The notes under the pieces are model-generated. The model searched no databases. It saw only the letters and a list, made by a program, of their open reading frames with translations, and had not been told where the DNA came from. Source: a virus. From it: a stretch of 35,746 nt of DNA. A program made the position numbers and the translations under genes. Shown one piece after another: positions 2,902 through 18,279 of this stretch (its first letter is position 1; the number at the start of each line of letters is the position of its first letter). The DNA is taken from the IMG/VR virus record IMGVR_UViG_3300037487_000802, positions 1 through 35,746 of that record, one strand, 5' to 3'.

Positions 2902-3473
2902 ATAATATAAAATTATATTTAATAGGAGCTATAGTCTTATTATTAACAGGACTATCATTAGTCTTACATAGAAATTCTATTCTTAAAAAAGACAGAGACA
3001 GGCAAACAGAAAATCTTGCAAATATCACAAAAGAGAATGAAAGGCAGTTAGTGCTAAAATTAGACGATTACAACGCACTTAATGCAAAGTGGAAGACTAC
3101 ACTTGATTCTACATTAAAAGCAAATGATATAGCCTTAAAGCGTGTTAAAGGAGCAACGATTATAATAACCCAGTATAAAGATACGGGAAGCACTAAAATT
3201 GTCTACAAAGATGTTGTATCGCTCCCTGATGGGTCATTTAAAATTCCTGTAGGCTTTGATTCTCAATGTTGGGGGTTTAAGGGCGAGATACTTTCTAAAG
3301 ATCAATCGTCAACTTTAAAAATAAATGAAAAGACTGCGAACAATTCAATTCAATTAGTGGTAACAAAAGATCGCTACTTCCTTGGGTTTCTTTGGCGAAC
3401 ACGAAAAGCGGACTTTAAAACATTTTCCGATTGCGGACAAGTTGATATAACTAAAATCGACTTTGTAAAGTAA
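2898..3473 (+). CDS. Spanin-like inner-membrane coiled-coil protein
   Basis: 191 residues. One N-terminal membrane helix (residues 5-23) is followed by a heptad-rich segment (about 28-85, KKDRDRQTENLANITKENE onward) and a C-terminal beta-rich part (90-191). Anchor plus periplasmic coiled coil at the end of a lysis cassette is the layout of an i-spanin or unimolecular spanin-like protein of Bacteroidota phages. I see no lipobox partner gene inside or after it. It is the last gene before the terminator at 3532, so it closes the late transcription unit. Confidence 0.65.
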   Translation: MNNIKLYLIGAIVLLLTGLSLVLHRNSILKKDRDRQTENLANITKENERQLVLKLDDYNALNAKWKTTLDSTLKANDIALKRVKGATIIITQYKDTGSTKIVYKDVVSLPDGSFKIPVGFDSQCWGFKGEILSKDQSSTLKINEKTANNSIQLVVTKDRYFLGFLWRTRKADFKTFSDCGQVDITKIDFVK

Positions 3474-12417: not shown

Positions 12418-13401
12418 ATGATTAAAGATCAATTAATTACAGAAGATTACGCAATTTATTGCTCGGACAATATGTTTGTCCTTCCTTCATTCCCGGATAA
12501 TTCTATTCCTTTATCTGTGTACTCACCACCATTTGCCGGACTTTACAATTACTCCAGCTCTCCGAATGACTTTTCTAATTGTGAATCGAGAGAACAGTTT
12601 TTGAATCAGTATGAATATTTAATTGCTGAAATATCAAGGGTTACAATGCCGGGAAGAATTACGGCAGTACATTGCACTGATATTAATAGTTGTGCCAATG
12701 AGAATTTGTGGGATTTTCCGCACGAAATTATCAAACTACATGAAAAGCATGGATTCCATTACAGGAATAGAATAACGATATGGAAAGAACCATTAAAAGT
12801 CAGAATGAGAACGATGGTAAGAAGTTTAATGCATAAATTAATAGTCGAGGATTCTACCGAATGCTTCCCGGCTATGCCTGATTATGTTCTCATTTTCAAA
12901 AAATCAGGAGAAAACGAAATACCCGTAACTCATCCATTTGGATTAGCACATTATGCCGGAGCTCATCCATTTTTACCGGAACACGTCGAAACTTATGGAA
13001 GTTATGAAGACTTTAAAAAGAAATGGTCAGGATTTAACGGTGATCCGAGGGAAAATAAATTTAGTCATTTAGTATGGCAACGTTATGCCTCCAGTGTTTG
13101 GGATGATATAAGAATTGATGAGGTTTTACAGTATAAAGAAAGCAAAGACGAGGATGATGAAAAACACGTACATCCGCTTCAGCTTGATGTTATTGATCGA
13201 ATTGTGGAGCTGTATTCAAATCCAGGAGAGGCAGTATTAACTCCATTTATGGGAGTAGGATCAGAGGTTTATAGTCCGGTATCAATGGGCAGGAAAGCAA
13301 TTGGGATAGAGCTTAAGGACAGCTATTTCAAACAGGCTGTTAAAAATTTAGCAGATGTTAAAAAGAGATTTGATGTAGATACTCAACAAAAACTATTTTA
13401 A
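12418..13401 (+). CDS. DNA methyltransferase, beta class (N4-cytosine or N6-adenine)
   Basis: 327 residues. The catalytic motif IV SPPF (36-39) precedes the S-adenosylmethionine motif I TPFMGVGSE (about 275-283), which defines the beta order. SPPF is more common in N4-cytosine enzymes, although some N6-adenine enzymes carry it. The middle (about 80-240), with HVETYGSYEDFKKKWSGF, probably contains the target-recognition part. There is no cognate endonuclease next to it, so it is likely an anti-restriction or self-marking enzyme working with the helicase upstream. Confidence 0.88.
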   Translation: MIKDQLITEDYAIYCSDNMFVLPSFPDNSIPLSVYSPPFAGLYNYSSSPNDFSNCESREQFLNQYEYLIAEISRVTMPGRITAVHCTDINSCANENLWDFPHEIIKLHEKHGFHYRNRITIWKEPLKVRMRTMVRSLMHKLIVEDSTECFPAMPDYVLIFKKSGENEIPVTHPFGLAHYAGAHPFLPEHVETYGSYEDFKKKWSGFNGDPRENKFSHLVWQRYASSVWDDIRIDEVLQYKESKDEDDEKHVHPLQLDVIDRIVELYSNPGEAVLTPFMGVGSEVYSPVSMGRKAIGIELKDSYFKQAVKNLADVKKRFDVDTQQKLF

Positions 13402-13574: not shown

Positions 13575-13784
13575 ATGAAAGCATTCAACAACATCGAACA
13601 AGGCAAAAGCATGATCAATGATCTGCTAATAGCTCACAAGACGTACATAATCGAGAACTTGACCACAGTTGATGAAGATGTCGTAAACCAAAAAACAAGA
13701 ATGTATAAGTTCTTCTGCTGGTTCATTTGGGGTCATATATTCAAGGGTGGTATCTGTGCAAGATGTGGGAAAAGTAAAGCATAA
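13575..13784 (+). CDS. Small protein with DUF1660-like C-terminus
   Basis: 69 residues. The last 27 (MYKFFCWFIWGHIFKGGICARCGK) match the C...GH...CxxCGK layout of small DUF1660-like phage proteins, with Cys, His and a CARC pair as likely zinc ligands. The first 40 residues are helical and unrecognised. Its stop codon lies inside the 17-bp palindromic element GCATAACGGTGTTATGG, as seen for genes that end in an integron attC site. Confidence 0.55.
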   Translation: MKAFNNIEQGKSMINDLLIAHKTYIIENLTTVDEDVVNQKTRMYKFFCWFIWGHIFKGGICARCGKSKA

Positions 13785-13806
13785 CGGTGTTATGGCCCGT
13801 TTTTTC
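13779..13806. repeat. Collapsed attC-like element and terminator
   Basis: GCATAACGGTGTTATGG (13779-13795) has 6-bp arms CATAAC/GTTATG around GGT. It equals the ends of the element at 14800-14927 joined at its two CGGT repeats. The segment AACGG (13783-13787) can also pair with CCGTT (13797-13801), which runs into TTTTTT, so it may act as a terminator for the gene at 13575. Confidence 0.6.
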
Positions 13807-13901
13807 TCCGTGTTCTTTTTTGGTTAAATACCTGAAATTCAACCACTAATATTTAGAATTATTATAAATAGATTAAATATAGAAAAATAAGTGATAAAAT
13901 A

Positions 13902-13933
13902 TTTGCACAATTAAAAAACCCGTTGTATCTTTG
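13902..13933 (+). promoter_or_regulatory. Consensus Bacteroidota promoter TTTG-N20-TATCTTTG
   Basis: TTTG 13902-13905, a 20-base spacer and TATCTTTG 13926-13933 fit the -33/-7 consensus perfectly. Transcription should start near 13938. No gene starts for 350 bases, so it drives the structured segment that follows. A boxA-like GTTCTTTGAA lies at 13955-13964. Confidence 0.8.
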
Positions 13934-13937
13934 CAGA

Positions 13938-14260
13938 GTAATTAAATGATAAAAGTTCTTTGAAGATATGAAAAAAGGGTAGCAAGCCAGACCGCACCCA
14001 TCACAAACGAAAAATAGTAGTTTGTGATTGAAGACGAAGCTGGGGGTAGTGTGAATACCTTACGAGTAATAATTCACACCGTTGCAAATTCAAGAAGGTT
14101 GGTGAAGTAACCACTTGAATACGTTTTAGAAAAATCACCCGTTGAAAGGTCAGTTAGTAACTGAATACGTGTTGGCAAAGAGTAACCAGTCACTCTGGTA
14201 TGGTGCAGGGATTAGGAATGCCTGTCGAAAGTTACCTGAAAGACTTTCATTTATTTATTG
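13938..14260 (+). ncRNA. Candidate structured non-coding RNA with boxA-like leader
   Basis: No open frame of useful length, but successive hairpins: 14000-14008/14020-14028 (9 bp), 14049-14056/14072-14079 (8 bp), 14088-14094/14114-14120 (7 bp) enclosing 14097-14100/14109-14112 (4 bp), 14150-14155/14159-14164 (6 bp), 14179-14183/14192-14196 (5 bp) and 14227-14232/14243-14248 (6 bp) followed by T-rich sequence that could end the transcript. GAATAC recurs next to three stems. A perfect promoter stands just upstream, and the leader GTTCTTTGAA resembles the boxA of Bacteroidota rRNA operons. It is not a tRNA, tmRNA, RNase P or SRP RNA as far as signatures can be read. A long structured 5' leader controlling the gene at 14292 is the main alternative. 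Confidence 0.65.
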
Positions 14261-14291
14261 TTTAATAATTTTTATTTTTAAAAAAAAATAT

Positions 14292-14651
14292 ATGGAAACG
14301 TTAAGAATAACAAAAACCGTTGGGCAAAACGGGTTCTTTGATTTGAGAAATCAAATGAACGAATTTGTAAAAAGCAACTTCGGTATATTATACGAAGGTG
14401 CAGTTCGTTTAGGCTGTGAAATACCAGCCGATTACTACGCGCCAGAAAGGGTGCAAGTTGGCAACACAAGGTTGCACGCTTCAATGGGGTTGAAATATGC
14501 CGATGGGCATAAATACTCCGATAATGCAGCACCTTCGGAAAGCCAATTGAGGCAAACTGTTAAGGATTTGCAGACCTTAATTGATGCCGCTGCTGAAAAA
14601 ATACCAGCGCCATTCACTCTTAATATTGTTGAGAATGAAAAGCGAGGTTAA
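14292..14651 (+). CDS. Unknown cassette protein, 119 residues
   Basis: 119 residues from ATG 14292; the frame is open further upstream, but that part overlaps the structured segment, and 14292 follows the T-rich end. It starts METLRITKTVGQNGFFDLRNQ and has a helical C-terminal half (SESQLRQTVKDLQTLIDAAAEKI). Not recognised. It overlaps the next gene by 17 bases. It lies between the collapsed and the intact attC-like elements and so would be cassette cargo. Confidence 0.65.
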   Translation: METLRITKTVGQNGFFDLRNQMNEFVKSNFGILYEGAVRLGCEIPADYYAPERVQVGNTRLHASMGLKYADGHKYSDNAAPSESQLRQTVKDLQTLIDAAAEKIPAPFTLNIVENEKRG

Positions 14652-14805
14652 GAAATCCAACGCTGGAAGAAAACCTGTGCCTGATAAGAAGGTGCAGGTT
14701 TCTATGTATGTATTAAGCTCGCAAATTGAAAAGTTTGGTGGGCTTGACGAGTTTAAACAAGCCTTGTATGATTTCGTGGCTTTGCGTTCTCAAAATGGGG
14801 CATAA
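14635..14805 (+). CDS. Small GRKPVPDKK-type protein, possible DNA binder
   Basis: 56 residues from the ATG at 14635. A basic N-terminus with GRKPVPDKK is followed by VQVSMYVLSSQIEKFGGLDEFKQALYDFV: strand, helix starting SSQI, turn FGG, helix. The layout recalls small ribbon-helix-helix proteins and is shared with the C-terminus of the protein at 4037. The stop codon TAA (14803-14805) lies within GCATAAC, the first arm of the attC-like element, exactly as in integron cassettes. Confidence 0.6.
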   Translation: MKSEVKKSNAGRKPVPDKKVQVSMYVLSSQIEKFGGLDEFKQALYDFVALRSQNGA

Positions 14806-14927
14806 CGGTTTGCATAAGACCAGTAAAGGAATGCGAGCGATGAACTATCAAGATACACAACAGGCTGAACGGGCTACGATGCTGAAATTACCGATACAAC
14901 CTTTATTGGTTTTATGCGGTGTTATGG
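14800..14927. repeat. attC-like imperfect hairpin element
   Basis: Outer arms CATAAC (14801-14806) and GTTATG (14921-14926) flank unequal spacers of 5 and 3 bases. Then comes an 18-bp inner stem, 14812-14829 with 14900-14917, whose only departures are two G-T pairs. A 70-base loop lies inside. Outer core, asymmetric spacer, inner stem, variable loop, and the stop codon of the gene placed in the first core are the features of integron attC sites. R' would be GTTATGG at 14921-14927. AACGG 14804-14808 can also pair with CCGTT 14932-14936 before TCTTT, as in the copy at 13779. Confidence 0.65.
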
Positions 14928-14983
14928 GCTGCCGTTCTTTCAAAATATAGCCTTGGACGGGCTTTGTAAAATCCAATAAGATT

Positions 14984-15307
14984 ATGGACAAAATAATGAT
15001 TAGCCAACCTATGAATGGCTTTACAGAAGAACAAATTGTAGAAACAAGAAATCGTTTTTTACAGTTTGCTGAAAAAGAAAACTTAGAAGTTGTAAACACT
15101 TACTTTCAAGATGAATGGTATTCAAAAGATGCTATGACTGGACGTGGAGTGGTGCAAATCCCATTATGCTTTTTAGCGAAATCAATCGAAAACATGAGCC
15201 TTTGCCATAAAGCATATTTTGCTAAAGGTTGGGAAAATGCAAGAGGTTGTAAAATTGAGCATGAGGTAGCTTTGCAATATGGATTAGAGATAATCCACGA
15301 GAATTAA
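14984..15307 (+). CDS. DUF4406 (nucleoside deoxyribosyltransferase-like) protein
   Basis: 107 residues. The start MISQPMNG (5-12) and the block FAKGWENARGCKIEHEVALQYGLEII (79-104) match DUF4406, a family related in fold to nucleoside 2-deoxyribosyltransferases (ISGPMSG start, GWxxSRGxxxE middle). E93 and E95 are candidate catalytic acids. Phage members may act on modified nucleotides or nucleotide signals, but substrates are unknown. It is the first gene after the intact attC-like element, 57 bases past its R' core, and so probably a cassette gene itself; the hairpin at 15320 follows it. Confidence 0.75.
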   Translation: MDKIMISQPMNGFTEEQIVETRNRFLQFAEKENLEVVNTYFQDEWYSKDAMTGRGVVQIPLCFLAKSIENMSLCHKAYFAKGWENARGCKIEHEVALQYGLEIIHEN

Positions 15308-15319
15308 GAGTTTCGGGTT

Positions 15320-15349
15320 CGTAGGACTGTTCTTCGGAGCGGTCTTACG
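15320..15349 (+). terminator. 13-bp hairpin with TTCG loop after the DUF4406 gene
   Basis: Bases 15320-15332 pair with 15337-15349 (13 bp including three G-U pairs) around a TTCG tetraloop, a very stable RNA turn. No T-run follows, so it could be a terminator of unusual type, an RNA-processing site, or a core of another recombination element (CCATAAC follows at 15355-15361). A second imperfect palindrome, 15366-15386, follows. No gene is seen in 15308-15439. Confidence 0.55.
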
Positions 15350-15439
15350 GTTGCCCATAACTAAGATATACACGCAATGCGTATATACACCCAATTTGGA
15401 TCGCTATACGCAACTAACATAATAAGGAGGAAAACAAAA

Positions 15440-15805
15440 ATGACATCAAATGAGCTAAGAATTGGAAATTATATCGAATGGGTTGGTAAACACGAAGATT
15501 CAAGAATTTTAAAGTTAAAAGATTTTAATATTGTTTGTGAATCTTTAAATAATAACGAACCTTATTTTAAGCCTGTTCCAATAACTGAACAGCAATTATT
15601 AAGGTTTGGATTTAAAGATTGTGGTTATACTTTTGAATTAAAGAGAAAAACAAAATCATTTATTTTCACATGGTATTCAAAAGAAGTCTTAACTGGCAAA
15701 CGAAGTGGATGGTATTGCAAAAAGTATGAACACATAAAATATGTTCATCAGTTGCAGAACTTATATTTTGCTCTTACAGGAGGAGAATTGTTATTAAAGA
15801 AATAA
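15440..15805 (+). CDS. LRIGNY-type phage protein, unknown function
   Basis: 121 residues from ATG 15440, chosen because a strong AAGGAGG (15424-15430) precedes it by nine bases; the frame is open from an ATG at 15377 that lacks such a site. The pattern ELRIGNYIEW, then PVPITEQQLLRFGF and a C-terminal KYVHQLQNLYFALTGGEL, is that of a family very common in Bacteroidota phages and mobile elements. Its role is unknown. The same 18-base leader as at 15421-15438 occurs before the next gene. Confidence 0.8.
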   Translation: MTSNELRIGNYIEWVGKHEDSRILKLKDFNIVCESLNNNEPYFKPVPITEQQLLRFGFKDCGYTFELKRKTKSFIFTWYSKEVLTGKRSGWYCKKYEHIKYVHQLQNLYFALTGGELLLKK

Positions 15806-15817
15806 GGAGGAAAACAA

Positions 15818-16036
15818 ATGGAAAATAAAGAATCTAAATTAGACTTAGTCTCATTATCTGACAGTCTTGATACTGCTCTAAAGAATGAGACTAAAGAAAG
15901 TTTAACCGAATGGTTGGAGAGTGGAAGAAAAGAAACTACTACACAATATTGTAACCACGATTTTGTTATAAAATATGGTGGATATGAATGCCAGAACTGC
16001 GGTATTGAATATGATGAAATTAATAAACTAAACTAA
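15818..16036 (+). CDS. Small zinc-ribbon-like protein
   Basis: 72 residues. An acidic, helical N-terminal half leads to YCNHDFV...GGYECQNCGIEYDE, where C, H and the CQNC pair could bind one zinc. A strong AAGGAGG site (15804-15810) overlaps the stop codon of the gene before and is unusual for this genome, implying high translation or reinitiation. Function is unknown. Confidence 0.7.
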   Translation: MENKESKLDLVSLSDSLDTALKNETKESLTEWLESGRKETTTQYCNHDFVIKYGGYECQNCGIEYDEINKLN

Positions 16037-16040
16037 ACAA

Positions 16041-16202
16041 ATGGAAATATTAACAGACATCGGAATACTTGCATTATGGGTAACGCTCATCGTTGTTACT
16101 CTTTTAGTAATCGCTTTCTTTGCTCTCCGGGAGCCAGACCCCGTTGACGAATGGGATGAAATAGACGGTCACGACTACACAGATCAGGAAGAATGGAGAT
16201 AA
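16041..16202 (+). CDS. 53-residue membrane microprotein with acidic tail
   Basis: 53 residues: one hydrophobic helix (8-28, GILALWVTLIVVTLLVIAFF) and a strongly acidic tail (EPDPVDEWDEIDGHDYTDQEE). It starts four bases after the preceding stop. Its charge pattern is the opposite of the basic-tailed microprotein at 4381. Not recognised. Confidence 0.6.
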   Translation: MEILTDIGILALWVTLIVVTLLVIAFFALREPDPVDEWDEIDGHDYTDQEEWR

Positions 16203-16234
16203 TTTGATATTGTTAAAAATATTATTTAATTTTG
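16203..16234 (+). promoter_or_regulatory. Consensus promoter TTTG-N20-TAATTTTG
   Basis: TTTG 16203-16206, a 20-base spacer and TAATTTTG 16227-16234 fit the Bacteroidota consensus. Transcription should start near 16239, ten bases before the ATG at 16249. It could drive the genes up to the methyltransferase and terminase. Confidence 0.75.
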
Positions 16235-16248
16235 ATCAAAATATCACA

Positions 16249-16395
16249 ATGAAAAAATGTATCGAATGTGATGAATTATACGAAGACGAATTAATTGATG
16301 AGTCGGGTAAATGTGAGATGTGTGCCGAAATCGATCCGTGCGAAGACTGCAACCTGTTTTGTAAGTCAAGATGTCTAAAAGGACTTAAATTTTAA
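16249..16395 (+). CDS. 48-residue protein with eight cysteines
   Basis: 48 residues from ATG 16249, placed just downstream of the promoter. Cys at 4, 7, 22, 25, 31, 34, 38 and 42 make four CxxC-like pairs, enough for two zinc sites in a double-ribbon or treble-clef-like arrangement. It is acidic between the pairs. Such mini zinc proteins in phages often bind host RNA polymerase or other proteins; that is inference. Confidence 0.7.
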   Translation: MKKCIECDELYEDELIDESGKCEMCAEIDPCEDCNLFCKSRCLKGLKF

Positions 16396-16397
16396 TT

Positions 16398-16628
16398 ATG
16401 TACTACTATTTGAAACCACAGCATTTTATGTTCTCAAGGATCGGTCATCACAACGAAGAGATCATAATCGACAAGCTCAACACAAGAGTGATTCAGTTCA
16501 TGACAATCAATGATCCTTATTCAAAATTCAACATCGAACAAGTGACCAAAGAACAATACATGAGATATAAGAAATTAGCCTTATTTAGACTAAATAAAAA
16601 TGAAGACACTACTAAAAATATTCGATAA
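16398..16628 (+). CDS. Small protein, unknown
   Basis: 76 residues, basic and aromatic-rich (MYYYLKPQHFMFSRIGHH), with a helix near EQYMRYKKLALF. Not recognised. It begins two bases after the Cys-rich gene and overlaps the next small gene by 29 bases, so it belongs to the same transcript. Confidence 0.6.
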   Translation: MYYYLKPQHFMFSRIGHHNEEIIIDKLNTRVIQFMTINDPYSKFNIEQVTKEQYMRYKKLALFRLNKNEDTTKNIR

Positions 16629-16719
16629 CATACTTGAAATATACGGAGCTTTGATACTCGGACTATTGACTTCAGCCCTGATATTTATTACATTTGCAAT
16701 AATTGACAAAATGATATGA
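16600..16719 (+). CDS. 39-residue membrane microprotein
   Basis: 39 residues with one long hydrophobic stretch (about 9-35, ILEIYGALILGLLTSALIF onward) between short basic ends. It starts inside the preceding gene in another frame, and its stop overlaps the ParB-like start as ATGA. This coupling and the clear membrane helix favour a real gene. It may be an anti-host or superinfection-exclusion peptide, but there is no motif for this. Confidence 0.55.
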   Translation: MKTLLKIFDNILEIYGALILGLLTSALIFITFAIIDKMI

Positions 16720-17243
16720 AACTCAACGAAATAAAAGAAAATCCATCAAATCCAAGACTTATTAAAGACGATAAGTTTAAAAAGTTACTAAAGTCTATTA
16801 AAGATTTCCCTCAAATGATGTCACTTCGTCCTATTATCATTGACGAAAACAACATAATACAAGGCGGCAATATGCGATTTAAAGCACTCAAAGAATTGGA
16901 CTACAAAGAGATACCAGACGAATGGGTAAAGCAAGGGAAAGACCTAACAGAAGAACAATGGAAAGAGTTTGTAATCAAGGATAATGTAGGCTTCGGTGAG
17001 TGGGATTGGGATGCGCTGGCAAATGAGTGGGATAGTGAACAGTTGACGGAGTGGGGAGTTGATTTGCCGGATTTTACCGACTATTCAGATAAAAACAAAG
17101 AAATCGACACCGAAAGTTTTGACGATGAAATGATAATCAAACTGAAATACACGGAAGAGGATTATTTGAAAGTCAGGGATCAACTGGCAAAAGTAGCATC
17201 TTCGCCGGAAATGGCAGTTTGGAAACTATTAGGAAATGAGTAA
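16716..17243 (+). CDS. ParB/sulfiredoxin-fold domain protein
   Basis: 175 residues. The N-terminal 60 residues carry the ParB-like nuclease/CTPase fold signature: NPSNPR, RPIIIDENNIIQGGNMRFKALKEL, with GGNMR (50-54) in the place of the GERR/GxxR motif. The rest is acidic and helical. In phages such ParB-like proteins are often encoded next to DNA methyltransferases, as here: its end overlaps the C5 methyltransferase start by eight bases. Substrate binding or guidance of methylation is assumed; partition is unlikely. Confidence 0.82.
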   Translation: MKLNEIKENPSNPRLIKDDKFKKLLKSIKDFPQMMSLRPIIIDENNIIQGGNMRFKALKELDYKEIPDEWVKQGKDLTEEQWKEFVIKDNVGFGEWDWDALANEWDSEQLTEWGVDLPDFTDYSDKNKEIDTESFDDEMIIKLKYTEEDYLKVRDQLAKVASSPEMAVWKLLGNE

Positions 17244-18279
17244 AGGACATTTATTCCCGTACAAATGGAATTTAGCGGATGGTTATCCGGCTAAAGGAAT
17301 AAGCAAACACGGTTTAAAAGTGTTTGGTACTTTCATTTGTGGCGGTGGTTCTACAATGGGTTATAAATTAGCTGGGTTTAATCATTTGGGCGGTGTTGAA
17401 ATTGACCCACCTATTGCAGATGTTTACAAAACAAATCATAAACCGAAGCATCTTTATAATTTAGATATTAGAGAATTTAATAAACTTATTGATTTACCTA
17501 CTGAATTATTTAATTTAGATATTTTGGACGGTTCTCCACCTTGCTCAACTTTTAGCATGGCTGGTAGTCGTGAAAAAGCGTGGGGCAAAGAAAAAGTATT
17601 TAGAGAGGGACAAGCAAAACAAAGTCTTGATGATTTAGTTTTCGTTTATTGCGATACAATCATAAAACTACAACCAAAAGTATTTTTATTAGAAAACGTA
17701 AAAGGTATTATACAAGGTAATGCAAAGGTTTATTCAAAAAATATAGTTAAGAAAATGACTGATGCAGGTTACAAAGTGCAAGTTTTTTGCCTTAACGCTG
17801 CATCAATGGGAGTGCCACAAAAACGTGAACGTGTATTTTTTATAGGACACAAAAAAGAATATAATTTACCGAAATTAAAATTAGAGTTTAGTGAGGTATC
17901 TATAAAAATGGATTTTTTAGAAAGCAATAATGAATTAAATAAAGACGGTAAATTATACAGCGATTGGCTACAAAGAAAACAAGGAGATAAAAATTTCGGA
18001 GATGTTTGTTTAAGAACAGAAGGAGTTCAAAAGTCTTTTGGCAGAGTTTTATTATCTAAAACTGATTATGTACCAACTATTGTGAGCGGTAATCAATATA
18101 TTTATTTTGATAAATTCGTAGAAGCAAGTAAAAAAGATTATTGCCAAATTGGCACCTACCCACTTGATTACAACTTCAAAAAAATAGAACCTAAATATTT
18201 AATCGGTATGAGCGTACCGCCGGTGATGACCGCTCAAATATCAAATCAGATTGCAAAACAATGGTTCAAATTAATTTAG
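17236..18279 (+). CDS. C5 cytosine DNA methyltransferase
   Basis: 347 residues with the usual order of C5-methyltransferase motifs: motif I FGTFICGGGSTMGYKLAGF (30-48), motif IV GSPPCSTFSMAG with catalytic Cys103, motif VI LLENV (E153-N-V155), motif VIII QKRERVFFIG (195-204) and the closing GMSVPP near 330. The target-recognition region is about 210-310. There is no restriction enzyme beside it, so protection of phage DNA from host restriction is the likely role. Together with the beta-class enzyme at 12418 it gives the phage two different modification activities. Confidence 0.92.
   Translation: MSKGHLFPYKWNLADGYPAKGISKHGLKVFGTFICGGGSTMGYKLAGFNHLGGVEIDPPIADVYKTNHKPKHLYNLDIREFNKLIDLPTELFNLDILDGSPPCSTFSMAGSREKAWGKEKVFREGQAKQSLDDLVFVYCDTIIKLQPKVFLLENVKGIIQGNAKVYSKNIVKKMTDAGYKVQVFCLNAASMGVPQKRERVFFIGHKKEYNLPKLKLEFSEVSIKMDFLESNNELNKDGKLYSDWLQRKQGDKNFGDVCLRTEGVQKSFGRVLLSKTDYVPTIVSGNQYIYFDKFVEASKKDYCQIGTYPLDYNFKKIEPKYLIGMSVPPVMTAQISNQIAKQWFKLI

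Follow-up and report, generated by a model that had tools for sequence, protein, structure and literature searches.

Whether a stretch of DNA upstream of the gene at position 14292 encodes a dedicated noncoding RNA (ncRNA), or serves as a long leader of that gene, was the question raised by a 35,746-nt viral sequence (IMG/VR record IMGVR_UViG_3300037487_000802; the whole stretch is referred to here as the window). The initial annotation had proposed a possible structured RNA of about 300 bases at 13938-14260, made up of six successive hairpins and devoid of a usable reading frame. The absence of a reading frame was confirmed, as the TTG-started frame from 14142 merely prolongs the gene at 14292 in the 5′ direction. 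Folding of single sequences was a weak argument, with local folding z scores of −2.7 for 13938-14291 and, in the core regions of the five family members described below, between −0.4 and −2.3, weakly better than shuffles. Thus, comparative evidence had to decide.

A homologue search with the 119-amino-acid (aa) ORF at 14292 identified a phage record (L002) with the same RNA upstream, minus a 60-nt unit, and pattern scans of IMG/VR recovered L006, L011, and L012, for a total of four further distinct members (L013 is the same phage as L012). A 100% copy found in a Bacteroidetes metagenome-assembled genome (MAG; L004) is probably the same phage. Two broader scans gave no further members, and nine candidate records (L025 to L033) had no match to R1, a model of the 3′ domain. 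When ∼1,290 Bacteroidota genomes (some of them sampled repeatedly) were searched with R1, the only convincing match was on the MAG's own phage contig. Two other R1 matches (L023 and L024) were rejected, as they appear protein-coding (L023 resembles an ftsH gene) with several stems broken, and L007, L008, L009, and L010 were chance matches to short patterns. No homologue of the RNA turned up among GenBank phages and plasmids by Blast. An Rfam search had been proposed as a check; Rfam 15 gave no RNA-strand match for the whole window at the gathering threshold, nor for the members searched (L006, L011, and L012) at E values up to 5.

Covariation analysis, also proposed initially, showed that the stems change with compensation among members. 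In the five-member alignment (A4), hand-made, N-padded, and fitted by eye from few sequences, 98% of 247 pair cells were standard pairs, and compensating changes were present in 28 of 57 pairs (43 cells). None of 500 shuffles reached the observed covariation, slid controls yielded 1 to 4 compensating pairs, and the proposed stems ranked first when every four-column helix was scanned without guidance. Compensating changes beyond those of the controls are the decisive evidence for a structured RNA. The G-U pairs (the P7 closing pair and pseudoknot b) are present when the element is read as the plus strand. We conclude that this is a real, undescribed RNA family that is not in Rfam. The element proposed at 13938-14260 was therefore a structured RNA, with its core corrected to the interval given in Table 1; a dedicated RNA of roughly the suggested length is supported by the compensation seen across the five members and by L012, in which the RNA stands alone.

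Table 1. Coordinates of the RNA, its parts, and the cassette features around it in the window
Feature	Position	Strand	Remarks
Shortened attC-like site (CATAACGGTGTTATG)	13779..13795	+	Cassette 5′ edge
Bacteroidota sigma-A type promoter, TTTG-N20-TATCTTTG	13902..13933	+	Motif; L002 identity; related L006 promoter
boxA, GTTCTTTGAA	13955..13964	+	Also in Bacteroidota 16S leaders
RNA core	13977-14248	+	Conserved structured RNA, ∼275 bases
P1 hairpin	13977-13980 with 13996-13999	+	Loop contains CCAG; covariation GGGT/ACCC to CGGA/TCCG
Pseudoknot a	CCAG 13987-13990 with CTGG 14040-14043	+	Pairs in 5/5 members
P3 hairpin, 8 bp	14000-14007 with 14021-14028	+	Compensating changes in six pairs
Pseudoknot b (H-type with P4)	GGGT 14044-14047 with ACCT 14057-14060	+	Pairs in 5/5 members
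P4	14049-14053 with 14075-14079	+	Both-side changes in 5/5 pairs
Module A, CGT ... CAAG/CTTG ... ACG	14080..14123	+	Within 60-nt unit missing from L002
Module B, CGU-UGAAAGGU-CAGUU...AACUG-AAU-ACG	14140..14169	+	Alignment
P6 hairpin, ACCAG/CTGGT	14185..14199	+	Both-side changes in 5/5 pairs
P7 hairpin, near-invariant loop GATTRGRATG	14205..14225	+	Kept in 5/5 members
P8 terminal hairpin, conserved loop TACCTGAAAG	14227..14248	+	Both-side changes in 6/6 pairs
119-aa ORF, same cassette, 3′ of RNA	14292..14651	+	No Pfam family
Second small ORF of cassette	14635..14805	+	Homologue in L002
attC-like imperfect inverted repeat closing cassette	14803..14926	+	26 paired positions between arms; fold

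By covariation, the fold divides into a 5′ domain that contains two pseudoknots and a 3′ domain built of modules and hairpins. The hairpins noticed initially were real, but they are not six simple ones, and both pseudoknots had been missed. Apart from the nested stems, the 5′ domain offers 1,208 possible four-column helices, of which just two, pseudoknots a and b, pair in all five members. One position of pseudoknot a is G-C, U-A, or A-U depending on the member, and pseudoknot b, which crosses P4 as an H-type fold with a long, A-rich third loop, shows a U-A to C-G change. P3 of L011 is uncertain, one L011 base was omitted from alignment A5, and module B and P6 are missing from L006. In the 3′ domain, a CGU-[5′ internal loop]-stem-[AAU]-ACG module occurs in two copies in the window, L011, and L012, in one copy in L002, and recognizably in one copy in L006. 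Because the window and L002 differ by one module unit, the number of modules changes by gain or loss of copies. GAATAC, noted initially as a repeat beside stems, has three copies: those at 14117-14122 and 14163-14168 form the 3′ side of the module, whereas the first, within the P4/pseudoknot region, is unconserved. The final hairpin and its T-rich sequence make a convincing terminator in L012 alone, where a T-run follows P8, and not in the window.

Next, the sequence 5′ of the RNA was considered. The promoter and the boxA-like element of the initial annotation are both present, and transcription is expected to start near 13938-13941. The promoter follows the TTTG-type Bacteroidota consensus (PMC7366714). 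By itself, the motif is weak evidence, since the loose pattern TTTG-N18-22-TANNTTTG is mildly enriched, with 7 occurrences in the window versus 2.1 expected by chance; its credibility comes from a nearly identical counterpart in L002 (92.7% identity in the region upstream of the RNA) and from its similarity to the L006 promoter. In Blast searches of phages and plasmids, the promoter region alone found matches, e.g., in Lak phages. The resemblance of 13850-13953 to promoters of Prevotella Lak phages and other phage records suggests a widely used phage promoter type; the Lak phage locus inspected was rejected as a homologue of the RNA, as an ORF follows the promoter there.

The boxA decamer is rare, with a chance expectation of 0.16 copies per window. 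Twelve Bacteroidota genomes with a 16S gene were sampled, and the 11 with a leader of at least 130 nt were counted; GTTCTTTGAA lies 75 to 138 nt 5′ of the 16S gene in 9 of these. The L002 leader carries the rRNA form GTTCTTTGAAAATAT, as do four of the nine boxA-bearing rRNA leaders. Only the window and L002 have a promoter plus an rRNA-type boxA immediately before their RNA, and it is in these two that a GTTCTTTGA-type element lies between promoter and untranslated RNA. No boxA was found before the other three of the five members (L006 and L011 included), which indicates that boxA belongs to the cassette version rather than to the RNA family.

The suspicion that the RNA might be mobile gained support from the comparison of the window with L002 and from the unrelatedness of the carrier phages. 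Homology between the window and L002 starts at 13787, inside the shortened 5′ attC-like site (a remnant), and ends at ∼14757, about 50 nt before the repeat that closes the cassette. Thereafter the two differ, and homology is back from ∼16.1 kb. When window positions 14930-16040 and 16041-16630 were compared with L002, the flank was common beyond ∼16.04 kb (82.9% identity) and the genes before it differed; differing genes between the RNA cassette and a common flank are as expected from cassette exchange. Identity between the window and L002 is 93.5% for the RNA (∼93% for RNA and promoter), versus 82.6% for the adjacent gene. The unit is bounded by attC-like repeats, as in an integron gene cassette or a CALIN (an attC cluster without integrase), and such repeats are also found near the RNA in L002, L006, and L011. 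A scan of 12.5 to 17.5 kb found no canonical RYYYAAC/GTTRRRY attC cores; the attC-like cores here read NTAACG...GTTAN, and the count from a relaxed scan was not above chance, with the strongest matches adjoining the RNA. Together, the boundaries support a placement of the RNA on what appears to be a mobile, attC-bounded, integron-type cassette. The cassette block is flanked by DNA methyltransferase and ParB-like genes (window 12418-13401 and 16716-18279), as in published phage CALINs.

The carriers of the RNA otherwise share almost no genes, and a search for a partner protein present in all five phages gave none. The window terminase resembles those of Parabacteroides phages, and that of L012 is crAss-like. 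Judging by these genes, the RNA is spread across otherwise unrelated phages of Bacteroidota-type bacteria. In the L006 record, a reverse transcriptase gene (phrog_1423; G003:C1:51977-53383, L038) adjoins a tail protein gene and is possibly part of a diversity-generating retroelement.

What such an RNA does was approached through its neighbors. We judge it somewhat more probable than not that this is a dedicated phage ncRNA gene on an integron-type cassette, transcribed in rRNA-like fashion and acting in trans. The main rival is a cis-acting leader or intergenic element (riboswitch-, attenuator-, or IRES-like) that controls the downstream ORF and moves as a promoter/leader unit, because four of the five copies (window, L002, L006, and L011) lie with P8 11 to 43 nt before an ORF. 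No clear terminator intervenes in these four, and in L006 and L011 an ORF also lies directly 5′ of the RNA. Against cis control, the downstream ORFs are unrelated among loci except for the window/L002 pair, so that no same or related downstream gene accompanies all members, and neighboring genes in general differ at every locus outside that pair. L012 has no adjoining ORF: downstream on the same strand, a 40-aa GTG-started frame alone precedes the next ORF, ∼590 nt off. (At 6316-6510 of L012, two more long hairpins lie 5′ of the RNA, one of them terminator-like, AGCCGGAGG...CCTCTGGCTATTTTT.) Furthermore, a relative of the 119-aa ORF exists without the RNA in a 194-kb phage record (L003, positions 3001-3360; 56 to 59% identical), and the RNA has diverged less than the ORF. 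AlphaFold modeled the 119-aa protein with moderate confidence (pLDDT of 66.7). A tRNA-like sequence was observed at ∼2177-2275 of L003, upstream of the ORF relative. The slower evolution of the RNA relative to the neighbor gene, the stand-alone copy with a terminator-like end in L012, and the changing neighbors favor a trans-acting RNA, and we regard the cis-acting leader as a serious but rather unlikely explanation.

Other functions appear far less probable. A ribozyme (an RNA that cleaves or processes itself), or a guide RNA that serves a nuclease encoded at another site, would suit the compact two-pseudoknot fold and the near-invariant P7 and P8 loops; we consider it improbable, given that no Rfam ribozyme or HEARO model matched the members searched and that the five phages have no protein in common. 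More doubtful still is an antitoxin role of the type III toxin-antitoxin kind, where a pseudoknotted antitoxin RNA lies directly 5′ of a small toxin gene. The order of promoter, pseudoknotted RNA, and small ORF in the window and L002 is of this kind, but there are two unequal modules instead of tandem identical antitoxin-type repeats, the downstream ORFs are unrelated among loci and absent in L012, the window ORF, which would stand for the ToxN-like gene, has no Pfam match, and no Rfam match was obtained in the members searched. Finally, the view that there is no RNA function, and that chance hairpins or DNA-level structure such as part of an attC site account for the weak advantage of single-sequence folds over shuffles, is already refuted by the covariation, the helix scan, and the two-pseudoknot result, and the attC-like sites are separate elements that flank the cassette.

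For the trans-acting RNA, a working mechanism can be proposed. RNA polymerase would start near 13940 at the canonical Bacteroidota promoter, and boxA would be read as in rRNA leaders, leading to an antitermination complex and hence to large amounts of an untranslated, highly structured transcript. The predicted product is a compact RNA with a two-pseudoknot 5′ domain and a modular 3′ domain, whose transcript would either stop at P8 or read through. Its action in trans would most likely consist in engaging a host RNA-binding protein or ribonucleoprotein during infection, either as a scaffold or as a decoy. The variable-number modules (one in L002 and two in the window) would be the candidate binding sites, and it is from their repetition that the scaffold/decoy role is guessed. 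A broader proposal, which we advance tentatively and believe somewhat less than we doubt, is that the family represents a new class of phage RNA, compact, with repeatable modules and a two-pseudoknot fold of its own; it would travel on integron-type cassettes between unrelated Bacteroidota phages, borrow the host rRNA promoter/boxA arrangement for its expression, and act on host machinery in a manner unlike any known RNA family.

Few parts of phage genomes are as poorly charted as their structured RNAs. Structured phage RNAs of unknown function, cassette arrays in phages (PMC9892861), and a cassette-borne regulatory RNA in Xanthomonas (as cited in PMC6557892) are already known. A covariation-supported family that is absent from Rfam, occurs in unrelated phages, and is found on a cassette with an rRNA-type leader provides a concrete target, and it raises the question of what selective job an untranslated RNA has in infection of Bacteroidota. 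It also suggests that the cargo of phage cassette arrays can include genes for RNA and not only for protein.

Comparison with known systems helps to place the family. The ornate phage RNAs ROOL and GOLLD (PMC12286853) are likewise structured, pseudoknotted phage ncRNAs of unknown function; the ROOL studied there has 659 nt and many GOLLD RNAs exceed 800 nt, whereas the RNA here has ∼275 nt and appears to be on an integron-type cassette. No member searched against Rfam matched a ROOL or GOLLD covariance model, and the window contains no tRNA genes of the kind that make up their tRNA-island setting. With Bacteroidota rRNA leaders the locus shares the promoter type and GTTCTTTGAA before an untranslated structured RNA; however, the RNA is not rRNA, just 21 nt separate its boxA from the −7 element, and three members have no boxA. 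CALINs with DNA methyltransferase genes have been described in phages, e.g., Polaribacter phage P12002L (PMC9892861), and the window similarly has attC-like sites near methyltransferase genes in a Bacteroidota-type phage; we found no structured ncRNA mentioned in that work, and the attC cores here deviate from RYYYAAC/GTTRRRY. A parallel for an ncRNA carried on an integron gene cassette is sRNA-Xcc1, a regulatory RNA from an ORF-less integron cassette of Xanthomonas (cited in PMC6557892). Compared with that RNA, the present family has no Rfam match and belongs to another host group; it is carried by phages, has two covarying pseudoknots, and shares its cassette with two ORFs.
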